NCBI RefSeq assembly: GCF_022655055.1
Contig: NZ_CP093384.1
Coordinates: 744,001-808,000, forward strand
DNA: 64,000 bases
Direction of reading: 5' to 3'
Origin: Vagococcus sp. CY52-2
GTDB lineage: Bacteria > Bacillota > Bacilli > Lactobacillales > Vagococcaceae
Part shown: piece after piece, positions 9,770 through 40,843 of the stretch
Position numbering within the stretch: the first letter of the stretch is position 1
Layout of the letters: each line of letters begins with the position of its first letter
Made by a program: the position numbers and the translations under genes
The notes under the pieces: generated by a model
Database searches by the model: none
The model's input: only the letters and a program-made list of their open reading frames with translations
Told to the model about the DNA's origin: nothing

Positions 9770-9850
9770 GGAGGGGTAGCGAAGTGGCTAAACGCGGCGG
9801 ACTGTAAATCCGCTCCTTCGGGTTCGGCAGTTCGAATCTGCCCCCCTCCA
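9770..9850 (+). tRNA. tRNA-Tyr (anticodon GTA)
   Basis: The acceptor stem GGAGGGG (9770-9776) pairs with CCCCTCC (9843-9849), discriminator A. The anticodon loop reads CTGTAAA with GTA. The long variable arm, the class II feature of bacterial tRNA-Tyr, is present (CTCCTTCGGGTTCGG region), and the T loop is TTCGAAT. CCA is not encoded. It is co-transcribed with tRNA-Gln, eight bases on. Confidence 0.97.
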
Positions 9851-9858
9851 TTTCTTAT

Positions 9859-9930
9859 TGGGCTATAGCCAAGCGGTAAGGCAACGGACTTTGACTCCGT
9901 CACTCGTTGGTTCGAATCCAGCTAGCCCAG
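9859..9930 (+). tRNA. tRNA-Gln (anticodon TTG)
   Basis: The acceptor stem TGGGCTA (9859-9865) pairs with TAGCCCA (9923-9929), discriminator G. The anticodon loop reads CTTTGAC with TTG. The T loop is TTCGAATC. CCA is not encoded. Lactobacillales usually make Gln-tRNA by amidating Glu-tRNA(Gln). Confidence 0.97.
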
Positions 9931-23963: not shown

Positions 23964-23992
23964 TTGACAAGTGACGTTTTTTTTTTTAAACT
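23964..23992 (+). promoter_or_regulatory. Promoter of the DHA2 transporter transcript
   Basis: TTGACA (23964-23969) is a consensus -35; 17 bases on lies TAAACT (23987-23992) as a weak -10. The transcript would have a leader of about 108 bases. Confidence 0.6.
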
Positions 23993-24017
23993 GATAACGG
24001 AATAAATCGTACAGATA

Positions 24018-24036
24018 ACACAAGGTTAACTTGTGT
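24018..24036 (+). promoter_or_regulatory. Palindrome ACACAAG-N5-CTTGTGT in the transporter leader
   Basis: Two perfect seven-base arms lie 11 bases upstream of the leader terminator. It could be an operator for a regulator or the first hairpin of an attenuator. AAGG within it sits five bases before a three-codon frame (TTG TGT CGA TAG, 24031-24042). Confidence 0.55.
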
Positions 24037-24046
24037 CGATAGAGAG

Positions 24047-24083
24047 GCGAAATTTATCTTTAAGGATAAGTTTCGCTTTTTTT
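24047..24083 (+). terminator. Intrinsic terminator within the transporter leader
   Basis: GCGAAATTTATC (24047-24058) pairs with GATAAGTTTCGC (24065-24076), 12 pairs with one T-G, six-base loop, then seven T. It lies after the promoter and just before the ribosome binding site of the MFS gene, which makes it an attenuator candidate. Confidence 0.8.
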
Positions 24084-24106
24084 ATGGAAAAATGGAGGGA
24101 ATTTTT

Positions 24107-25468
24107 ATGTCAGAAAAGAAATTTCATGTTAATTTAGCTGTTCTAGCAACTGGTATGATGGCTTTTTCGGGAGTGTTAATTGAAACAGCAATGAACGTGA
24201 CGTTTCCAACGTTAATGGAAGATTTTAGTATTTCAACATCACAAGTACAATGGGTGACAACCATTTATCTGTTGATGATCTCAATCGTTGTACCACTATC
24301 ATCTTATTTAATTAAAAATATCAGTCGTCGTAAGTTGTTTACGGTTTCAAGTATATTATTTTTAGTTGGTGTTGTGGTTGATGCTTTTGCTGGTGGGTTT
24401 ATCACGCTACTTGTTGGGCGAGTACTTCAAGGGATTGCCACAGGGATTGCATTGCCATTAATGTTTAATATCATTTTAACAAAAGTTCCAATGGAAAAAA
24501 GAGGAATGATGATAGGAATTGGTAATTTAACAACATCAATTGCCCCAGCGATGGGACCCACATATGGTGGAGTCCTAACAACAACGCTAGATTGGACTTA
24601 TATTTATAAGTTGTTGATCCCGGTTTTAATTGTATCTACATTGGTTGGTTTATATGCTATTCCAGAAGAAGACACATCAGTGAGTGATTCAATTAATGCT
24701 AAAGCCGTTCTTTATTTATCTGTGATGTTTACTGGATTATTGATGTTCTTTAGTTATTTAGAACAACCATTAGGATGGGTAGCATTAGTGGTTGGATTAA
24801 TTAGTGCATGGTTATTCTATAAAACAAATAAACAAAAAACATTGCTTAATTTAGTTGTCTTTAAAAATGCACGGTTCACTATTTATTTGATGTCATTTTT
24901 GGTTTATCAAATTCTGTTACTCGGTGTATCGTTTGTTTTACCAAACTTTATTCAAATCGTTCAAGGGGTTCCAGCATCTAAGGCGGGAATGATGATGTTT
25001 CCAGGTGCGTTAGTCGGTGCGTTATTTGCACCGATTTCAGGAAAAATATTAGATAAATTAGGCTTTAAAAAGCCAATAGGTGTGGGAGTATTATTTGCAA
25101 TTTTAGGTTGGTTAATGTTAATTATGGTCATTCAAACAGGAAACATTGCCTTAATTATTTTATCTCATGTCACTTTTATGATTGGTGTTGGGTTGTCTTA
25201 TAGTAATGTCATGACAGTTGGATTATCTTCTATAAAAGAAGACTTACAAGATGATGGGAATGCTGTTTTTAGTACATTACAACAATTTATGGGGGCTATT
25301 TCAACCTCATTTGTGGCTATTGTGGTTGGGTTATTCCAATCAGGAAAAAGCAATTTTATTCAAGGAACAAGTACTGGATCGAAAGTAGCATTAATTTCTC
25401 TATTTGTTTTGTTACTTGTCAGTAGTTTCTTTGTTATTAAGACATTTAAAAATAAACAAAACCTCTAA
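24107..25468 (+). CDS. MFS multidrug exporter, DHA2 (EmrB/LmrB-like) family
   Basis: The 453-residue polytopic protein fits a 14-helix DHA2 proton antiporter. Early helices carry NVTFPTLMEDF, TSQVQWVTTIYLLMISIVVPLS and LVGRVLQGIATGIALPLMFN; motif C-like GNLTTSIAPAMGPTYGGVL is in helix 5. The best start is ATG 24107, since GGAGGG (24094-24099) is well placed; an ATG at 24092 is upstream of it. A leader terminator suggests conditional expression. Substrate is unknown; relatives export lincosamides and other drugs. Confidence 0.88.
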   Translation: MSEKKFHVNLAVLATGMMAFSGVLIETAMNVTFPTLMEDFSISTSQVQWVTTIYLLMISIVVPLSSYLIKNISRRKLFTVSSILFLVGVVVDAFAGGFITLLVGRVLQGIATGIALPLMFNIILTKVPMEKRGMMIGIGNLTTSIAPAMGPTYGGVLTTTLDWTYIYKLLIPVLIVSTLVGLYAIPEEDTSVSDSINAKAVLYLSVMFTGLLMFFSYLEQPLGWVALVVGLISAWLFYKTNKQKTLLNLVVFKNARFTIYLMSFLVYQILLLGVSFVLPNFIQIVQGVPASKAGMMMFPGALVGALFAPISGKILDKLGFKKPIGVGVLFAILGWLMLIMVIQTGNIALIILSHVTFMIGVGLSYSNVMTVGLSSIKEDLQDDGNAVFSTLQQFMGAISTSFVAIVVGLFQSGKSNFIQGTSTGSKVALISLFVLLLVSSFFVIKTFKNKQNL

Positions 25469-25872: not shown

Positions 25873-25888
25873 GGTGAATATAATTTCG

Positions 25889-27106
25889 ATGAAAGTTGAC
25901 TGGAAGCGAAACATGTATATTGCATGGATTGGTTGTTTCTTTACAGGCGCAAGTTATAGTTTGGTGATGCCATTTATTTCAATATACATTGAACAATTAG
26001 GTGCACCTAGTAATAAAGTGGAATTTTATGCAGGATTATCTATTAGTTTAACGGCGTTATCGGCTGCAATGGTTTCTCCACTGTGGGGGAGTCTAGCAGA
26101 TAGAAAAGGGCGTAAGTTAATGATGATAAGAGCTGCAGCAGGAATGACCGTTACTATGGGCTCATTGGCGTTTGTTCCAAATGTTTTTTGGTTGTTATTT
26201 ATGAGGTTTTGTAATGGCTTATTATCTGGTTATGTTCCAAATGCTACGGCAATGATTGCCTCCCAAGCACCAAAGGACAAAAATGGTATGGCTTTGGGAA
26301 CTCTTGCTACTGGTGCTGTAGCAGGTAGTTTGATTGGCCCATCACTTGGTGGCTTATTAGCACAAACAGTGGGGATAAAAAATGTTTTCTTAGTAACAGG
26401 AAGTATTTTATTTATGACGACTTTATTAACTATCTTTTTTATCCATGAAGACTTTGAGCCAGTTGAAAAAAAAGACATGGTATCTACCAAAGAAGTTTTT
26501 AAAAGCATTAAGCATCCTAAAGTATTAATTGGTTTATTTATTACAACTGCCATTATTCAAATAGGGATGACAAGTATCAGTCCTATTTTAACACTATATG
26601 TCAGAGAACTTGGTGGAAAGACAGGTAATATTTTGTTCGTTAGTGGTTTAATAGTGTCTGTAGCAGGTGTATCTGAATTTTTCTCGGCACCATTTTTAGG
26701 GAAATTAGGAGATAGAATTGGGAGTCAATATGTCTTGTTAGGTGGATTGATCTTATCATTTTTATTTATTTTTCCTATGTCATTTGTTCAGTCGCCCTTT
26801 CAGTTAGGGGTATGTCGTTTTCTGTTAGGTTTTTCAACAGGTGCATTGATGCCGTCTGTGAATACCTTAATTAGTAAAATTACACCGATGAATGGAGTTG
26901 GACGTATCTTTAGTTTTAACCAAATGTTTACCAGTATGGGACAAGTTGCAGGACCAATGGTTGGTTCCTTTGTTGCTAATGGATTTGGTTATCGTTCGGT
27001 CTTCATTGCAACAAGTTTATTGATTTTAATGAATATTACAATTAGTTTTTTTAATTTTAAGCATCAATTATCAATACGTGAGTTGATTAATGAATTTAAG
27101 CGTTAA
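25889..27106 (+). CDS. MFS multidrug exporter, DHA1 (MdtG-like)
   Basis: The 405-residue protein has about 12 membrane segments. Motif A appears as LWGSLADRKGRKLMMIRAA after helix 2, motif C-like GALATGAVAGSLIGPSLGGLL (here GTLATGAVAG...) in helix 5, and a second motif A-like FLGKLGDRIGSQY midway. A drug exporter of the MdtG or Bcr type is likely. ATG 25889 is chosen with AAAGGGTGA upstream; the GTG at 25874 overlaps that site. An inverted repeat around its promoter suggests regulation. Confidence 0.87.
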   Translation: MKVDWKRNMYIAWIGCFFTGASYSLVMPFISIYIEQLGAPSNKVEFYAGLSISLTALSAAMVSPLWGSLADRKGRKLMMIRAAAGMTVTMGSLAFVPNVFWLLFMRFCNGLLSGYVPNATAMIASQAPKDKNGMALGTLATGAVAGSLIGPSLGGLLAQTVGIKNVFLVTGSILFMTTLLTIFFIHEDFEPVEKKDMVSTKEVFKSIKHPKVLIGLFITTAIIQIGMTSISPILTLYVRELGGKTGNILFVSGLIVSVAGVSEFFSAPFLGKLGDRIGSQYVLLGGLILSFLFIFPMSFVQSPFQLGVCRFLLGFSTGALMPSVNTLISKITPMNGVGRIFSFNQMFTSMGQVAGPMVGSFVANGFGYRSVFIATSLLILMNITISFFNFKHQLSIRELINEFKR

Positions 27107-40641: not shown

Positions 40642-40700
40642 GTTTTTATTGATTTTTTAAATAATTAAGATATAATAAACTTATAAAAATATTAAAGGTC

Positions 40701-40823
40701 GTCTTCACGGGCAGGGTGTAATTCCCGACCGGTGGTTAAAGTCCACGAACCATTTATCTTATGATGAATGGCCGATTTGGTGAAATTCCAATACCGACAG
40801 TTAGAGTCTGGAGTAAAGAAGAT
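40701..40823 (+). ncRNA. FMN riboswitch (RFN element)
   Basis: The conserved RFN segments are all seen: TCTTCACGGGCAGGGTG, AATTCCCGACCGGTGG, CCACGAAC, then GCCGATTTGGTGAAATTCC, ACCGACAGTTAGAGTCTGG and AAGAAGA closing the base stem. It lies in the leader of ribU. Binding of FMN should favour the downstream terminator and cut riboflavin import. Confidence 0.95.
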
Positions 40824-40843
40824 AGGGCTTATTTGAGTATACA

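Follow-up and report, generated by a model that had tools for sequence, protein, structure and literature searches.

A conserved leader RNA before a clade of DHA2-type exporters in Lactobacillales is a candidate terminator-controlled riboswitch

We analysed a stretch of 64,000 nucleotides from Vagococcus sp. CY52-2 (contig NZ_CP093384.1, positions 744,001 to 808,000), referred to here as the window. In it, the leader of a DHA2-type MFS exporter gene holds a predicted structured RNA domain of ~60 nucleotides, which is common to many lactic acid bacteria and lies 5′ of the same exporter. We propose this leader as a candidate cis-acting riboswitch of the ON type, controlled through a terminator, a reading that we consider probable; its signal would be a small molecule, most likely one that the exporter removes. 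A sequence-only reading of the same DNA had described an attenuator in which ribosomes stall on a short leader peptide. The attenuator itself holds up, with a promoter of its own, a terminator directly upstream of the exporter gene's ribosome binding site and a competing antiterminator, but the leader-peptide stalling does not.

Our model suggests that transcription begins at the foot of a helix that we call P1. The nascent RNA would fold first as P1-internal loop-P2, which would constitute the sensor. The signal would stabilise this fold and keep the 3′ strand of P1 (GCGA...) out of the terminator, allowing readthrough into the exporter gene. With no signal, the longer terminator hairpin would win and transcription would stop some 25 nt short of the start codon. 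Sequence comparison establishes the conserved domain, the covariation of P2, the overlap with the terminator, where the promoter lies and, within the genomes searched, the restriction to one exporter clade. For the rest, we infer that P1 would act as the antiterminator in the cell, that the signal would turn the exporter on and that the RNA itself would bind this signal, a small molecule. Compared with riboswitches in general, the leader has both a structured 5′ domain and an overlapping expression platform. More tentatively, it might represent a new natural riboswitch class, one that responds directly to a small molecule, toxic or antimicrobial, by inducing the pump for it, and that has taken over the role of a MarR-type protein in one clade.

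Anatomy and conservation of the leader RNA

All features described here lie on the + strand, and the upstream neighbour of the exporter leader is a class-I glutamine amidotransferase gene (Peptidase C26). The leader begins with a promoter at 23964-23992, composed of TTGACA (23964-23969) and TAAACT (23987-23992) separated by 17 nt and matching the consensus at 10 of 12 positions; a promoter scan over 5 kb gave 27 sites, compared with 25.9 in shuffles, with no excess overall. Judging from the promoter position in relatives, transcription would start at 23999-24001, 7-9 nt 3′ of the -10 hexamer. The 5′ strand of P1, the candidate antiterminator, follows at 24002-24010 and consists of an ATAAA extension plus UCGU, with the CG/CG pairs invariant or nearly so. 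It leads into the near-invariant internal-loop strand UACAGAUA (24010-24017), the 5′ side of the putative binding site, in which each column is identical in 86-88 of 88 aligned rows. The P2 hairpin, ACACAAG-GTTAA-CTTGTGT (24018-24036), is a perfect 7+7 inverted repeat with arms at 24018-24024 and 24030-24036, and its assignment rests on pairing and covariation in relatives. The second internal-loop strand, CGA-N-AGAGG (24037-24047), forms the 3′ side of the putative binding site, and its CGA and AGAGGCG columns are shared by 86 or more of the 88 rows.

The 3′ strand of P1, GCGA plus TTTAT (24047-24057), doubles as the 5′ strand of an intrinsic terminator at 24047-24083. This terminator, recognised from its sequence, its fold energy and its relatives, has a stem of 12 bp (24047-24058 / 24065-24076) followed by T7 (24077-24083); the stem is absent from the output of an automated terminator scan of the same 5 kb. 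The ribosome binding site GGAGGG (24094-24099) and the exporter gene (24107-25468, with its ATG at 24107) complete the arrangement. Thus, the -35 hexamer, seven-base palindrome, 12-pair terminator with T7, ribosome binding site and start that had been read from the letters are all in place, and the frame TTG TGT CGA TAG is present at 24031-24042. The region 23998-24106 folds at -31.7 kcal/mol, compared with -15.9 (sd 2.79) for shuffled sequences (z = -5.66), and 0 of 200 shuffles was as low. The best NCBIfam match of the encoded protein is TIGR00711 (203.5 bits, 5.5e-60), below the curated cut-off of 230.2, and its match to Pfam MFS_1 (2.9e-48) passes the threshold. A second MFS exporter gene, MdtG-like (NF007372, 452 bits, below cut-off), lies just downstream at 25874-27106.

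By DNA similarity, the leader is present in every one of the 14 Vagococcus genomes searched (14 of 14). When 17 leaders from three families were aligned, the core was almost invariant and the hairpin sequence was variable. The common architecture comprises P1, written UCG(U)/(G)CGR; P2, the palindrome hairpin; and between them a loop made of UACAGAUA and CGA-N-ARAGG. In a plain MAFFT alignment of these 17 leaders, 97.2% of the cells were paired (100% in P2), with two-sided changes in 5 of the 6 P2 pairs. We also used a larger alignment of 89 rows, 87 of them distinct, which includes one chance viral match and comes to 88 rows once that match is removed; like a second alignment, it was fitted to the covariance model's own structure. 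Here 99.2% of the cells were paired overall and 98.8% in P2, and all six P2 pairs showed two-sided changes. Taken alone, this number of pairs arose in 96 of 500 shuffles, and the corresponding number in another run arose in 45 of 500. The model-fitted alignment held 131 double-changed cells, compared with 32.2 in shuffles, and its total of changed cells was reached by no shuffle. Its covariation score was 0.538, compared with 0.227 in shuffles, and all slid controls scored far lower. P2 is thus conserved as a pairing, as far as such an alignment demonstrates it.

Across the 88 rows, 21 columns are at least 97% identical, and the roughly 20 nucleotides conserved in the loop and P1 are the signature of a putative binding site. 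The counts out of 87 leaders given below refer to the distinct sequences among 126 rows (64 order-wide, 18 from family f9 and 44 from named genomes, with some genomes entered twice), and exclude 27 further named Lactobacillales loci and the locus L264. Of 87 distinct rows, 77 can form the third pair of P1, U-R, and in the other 10, set aside as gaps, the U faces a non-standard partner. L106 and L264 carry UACAGA, followed by A or G, in place of UACAGAUA before P2; these natural loop variants could possibly serve as a test of ligand contacts. In L105, P2 has grown to around a dozen pairs or more. Because the core is unchanged in this leader, the length of P2 appears to be free.

Promoter position and competition with the terminator

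A promoter-like hexamer pair was found in 80 of 87 leaders, compared with 125 of 870 shuffled upstream stretches, and in 71 of those 80 the -10 hexamer ends 11-17 nt 5′ of UCGUACAG. Since this placement is conserved, transcripts should start at the foot of P1, about 4-10 nt 5′ of the domain. By inspection, the 24 nt from the terminator to the start codon leave no room for a separate promoter.

A terminator hairpin with a T tail is present in 86 of 87 leaders, the remaining locus ending within the stem, and in 84 of 87 the 5′ strand of the terminator includes the 3′ strand of P1. Because the two strands are the same, the P1 and terminator folds are expected to compete. When the window RNA was folded stepwise, it adopted P1-P2 at 58, 62 and 74 nt; lengths of 66, 70 and 78 nt gave different folds, and the terminator had formed by 84 nt. 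All five leaders folded in this way have P1-P2 as their best fold at some intermediate length and none has it throughout, with L109 reaching it at 84 nt only. We also folded 11 leaders cut short of the 3′ strand of the terminator by a script rule. Eight of them formed P1-P2 with 6-7 P1 pairs and L110 formed it with 5, while L109 and L112 had no P1-P2 fold.

ATAAAT and ATTTAT, which had been put forward earlier as a weak antiterminator pairing, turn out to lengthen a conserved helix of 3-4 bp, UCGU/GCGA. Past this core, the ATAAA/TTTAT extension is weakly indicated. Beyond UCG/CGR, P1 showed little covariation gain: 13 of 300 permutations attained its pair counts and 65 of 300 its duplex energy.

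Distribution of the RNA and its link to one exporter clade

We trained a covariance model (R1) on 15 leaders and searched 395 genomes of Lactobacillales with E up to 0.01. It matched 64 genomes, with one match each; 15 of these genomes are the training set and one more is a near copy. An exporter match lies 47-300 nt downstream of all 64 motifs. By tblastn, the exporter was confirmed at 64 of 64 leaders (63 R1 genomes and G056) with 43-100% identity. A second model (R2), built from 64 leaders, matched 19 of 301 genomes in family f9, where 18 matches precede the exporter and one, of 23.5 bits, is a chance match. In a class-wide R2 scan with E up to 0.05, 14 of 398 genomes matched, and the five convincing matches (>60 bits) are all in Lactobacillales. 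A wider spread across the class was rejected, as the other nine matches are below 28 bits and none has the exporter within the 3 kb examined.

A pattern scan of named genomes returned at least 120 stretches, and the matches listed comprise 71 that are Lactobacillales by title and 49 others. Among these listed matches, the exporter is present at 69 of the 71 Lactobacillales loci; the sequence of the other two stops 67 and 152 nt past the start of the motif. The exporter is present at 0 of the 49 other loci, seven of which have less than 1,500 nt of downstream sequence. When R2 was applied to the first 80 pattern matches, the 44 Lactobacillales loci scored 35-73 bits, and the 36 others scored at most 26.9 bits or gave no match. 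Carrier genera include Enterococcus (E. avium, E. raffinosus, E. gallinarum and E. casseliflavus); among the matches listed, E. faecium and E. faecalis are not among the carriers identified by name. In four loci (L136, L140, L141 and L192, from E. durans, E. mundtii, E. thailandicus and one Enterococcus sp.), the gene on the far side of the leader from the exporter is a divergent ORF, which by eye resembles GyrI-like small-molecule-binding proteins. The single pattern match in viral contigs (25.7 bits) lies within a 225-codon frame on the opposite strand and was discarded as chance, and a search of plasmids with one E. mundtii leader-plus-exporter stretch gave no match.

The link also holds when the search starts from the exporter. 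In the best 68 exporter rows from the 395 genomes, of 45% identity and above, the RNA precedes 66 exporters, 64 by R1 and two (G093 and G056) by R2. The two exceptions are G282, where the exporter stands behind a MarR-type gene, and G288, which has neither the motif nor a MarR-type gene. None of 15 exporters taken from lower-identity rows scored above 11 bits for the motif. The G377 exporter carries the motif at 42% identity, and so exporter identity is a guide and not a border. In an exporter tree with 49 motif-bearing and 12 motif-less members, the motif rows, including the window's exporter, form one side of a branch with support 100/99. Within what was searched, the RNA is thus associated exclusively with one clade of DHA2 exporters, as far as motif matches trace it. 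The surroundings are far less constant: in 32 named loci, 32 upstream ORFs fall into 16 similarity clusters and 29 downstream ORFs into 15. Neighbours vary from clade to clade while the leader persists, so that RNA and exporter stay together. The operon partners in these 32 loci gave no ligand clue, and because one gene family alone carries the RNA, the ligand cannot be triangulated.

We then read the upstream ORF of 13 related exporters that are motif-less. In nine of them (L265, L267-L272, L278 and L020), a MarR-like ORF of 136-152 aa ends 27-41 nt before the exporter match. All five of these ORFs that were searched match Pfam MarR_2 (2.8e-14 to 1.2e-9), and the other four were assigned by resemblance. 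The remaining four relatives have a 170 aa ORF (L026) or other genes (L021, L266 and L280). The MarR-linked DHA2 exporters, of which L020 alone is in the tree, are 43-46% identical to the window's exporter and have a MarR-like ORF where the latter has the RNA. From gene order, the RNA is in the position that a putative ligand-sensing repressor occupies in relatives. This suggests that the RNA may have replaced a MarR-type repressor, and similar pumps seem to use either a protein sensor or an RNA sensor. If so, a MarR-type gene or an RNA before related pumps would offer a testable contrast between the two kinds of sensor.

Two further motif-less leaders drew our attention. The leader of L274, from family f4, has a -10-like site, then GGGCACTA-GAGAAAT-TAGTGCCC and, immediately upstream of the ribosome binding site, a run of T, and is perhaps another attenuator. 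L022 and L281, from genus g22, have in common another long leader, which contains GTACGAACTTTAGTTGACAGGGCTTCAGTTATGGCGATACA and looks conserved.

Alternative explanations and known systems

LicT/BglG RAT antiterminators are small hairpins with internal loops that overlap the 5′ strand of a terminator. In the same way, an RNA-binding protein could recognise the internal loop of the leader RNA and stabilise P1-P2. The geometry matches, since here too a small conserved hairpin with internal loops overlaps the terminator, and the strong sequence conservation would suit a protein site as well. However, no conserved gene accompanies the exporter, as judged from similarity clusters in the 32 named loci, each genome has one site (R1, E up to 0.01), and the Rfam bglG-cis-reg model scores 14.9 bits, compared with a gathering score of 80. 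We regard protein-dependent antitermination, which a conserved protein encoded elsewhere in the genome might carry out, as unlikely but as the main rival to the riboswitch. Regulation by a translating ribosome, which the sequence-only reading had favoured, is known for several resistance genes, and ribosome-mediated attenuators such as those of vmlR, lmo0919 and bmrCD need a translated leader frame. The leader described here shares with them a terminator in a resistance-type leader, and induction by a toxic compound is plausible for it, but it has no conserved leader frame. Aligning the leader across relatives, the check proposed with that reading, revealed compensatory changes in P2, but of 87 leaders one alone keeps the proposed frame, and conservation is likewise absent from every other frame that has a ribosome binding site. 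An NTG codon does precede YCGA in 77 of 87 leaders, but it sits within P2 and is missing in the other 10. A start codon preceded by a 4-nt Shine-Dalgarno core occurs in 20 of 87, in 18 of them just after the conserved GAGG, inside the terminator hairpin, and these frames range from 1 to 487 codons. Nor does a leader gene fit upstream of the domain, because the predicted start lies about 4-10 nt before it. Ribosome stalling on a leader peptide is thus very improbable.

The leader is short and highly conserved and has its own promoter and terminator, as would be expected if its terminated transcript acted chiefly in trans as a small RNA and leaky readthrough supplied the exporter. RNA and exporter clade go together in 64 of 64 loci when starting from the motif and in 66 of 68 when starting from the exporter, which favours a role in cis, and we give the trans-acting reading very little weight. 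Finally, the parts could be ordinary ones, with the palindrome serving as a DNA operator and the terminator closing the upstream transcript, the latter being the outcome that had been named as refuting the attenuator. Inverted repeats of this size are typical of operators, and MarR-type genes are found before related exporters. However, the palindrome is conserved in its pairing and not in its sequence, the opposite of an operator, and a promoter-like site stands just 5′ of the domain in 80 of 87 leaders. The domain also persists beside differing upstream genes (16 clusters in the 32 relatives), which argues against a terminator that merely closes the upstream transcript. This combination of ordinary parts is hardly credible. 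We continue with the riboswitch as the preferred reading.

No Rfam 15 family reached its gathering score at the leader, and 18 diverse relatives gave one tRNA elsewhere and nothing more. The best sub-threshold match was to PyrR (29.4 bits, compared with a gathering score of 54; E 0.015), and we rejected it, as the stems align over largely unrelated letters. A search of openly available literature found no description of the leader RNA; it may have been listed before, unnamed, as a terminated 5′ UTR. One start-site study of E. faecalis and E. faecium predicted leader elements with Rfam (PMC7724050) and, because its leader prediction as described relied on Rfam, would not have named this RNA.

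We therefore take the leader RNA for a new family within a known kind, and for a strong riboswitch candidate. By their published description, the nearest kind in architecture are guanidine-IV (mepA) and Gd4v, which are likewise ON-type, terminator-based and associated with exporter genes, and have conserved loop nucleotides (PMC9788692). As described there, however, these RNAs consist of two hairpins joined by a pseudoknot and precede mostly sugE, MATE, GNAT and transaminase genes in several phyla. The leader RNA, in contrast, has the order P1-loop-P2, shares P1 with its terminator and belongs to one MFS clade, in Lactobacillales only in what was searched. Its P2 loops differ in length and sequence among relatives, which speaks against a loop pseudoknot. 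According to the same source, ykkC-type riboswitches (guanidine-I and relatives) also precede efflux genes (PMC9788692). No Rfam 15 family, however, reaches its gathering score at the leader, in the window or in the 18 relatives. If our reading is true, an orphan riboswitch-like RNA would be added to genera including Enterococcus, with a size that suits quick biochemistry, and its ligand would point to the natural substrate of a DHA2 pump known now as a multidrug-type exporter alone. The sole matches in the window at Rfam gathering level are an FMN riboswitch (RF00050, 97.5 bits) and two tRNA genes, at 40697-40827 and 9770-9930.
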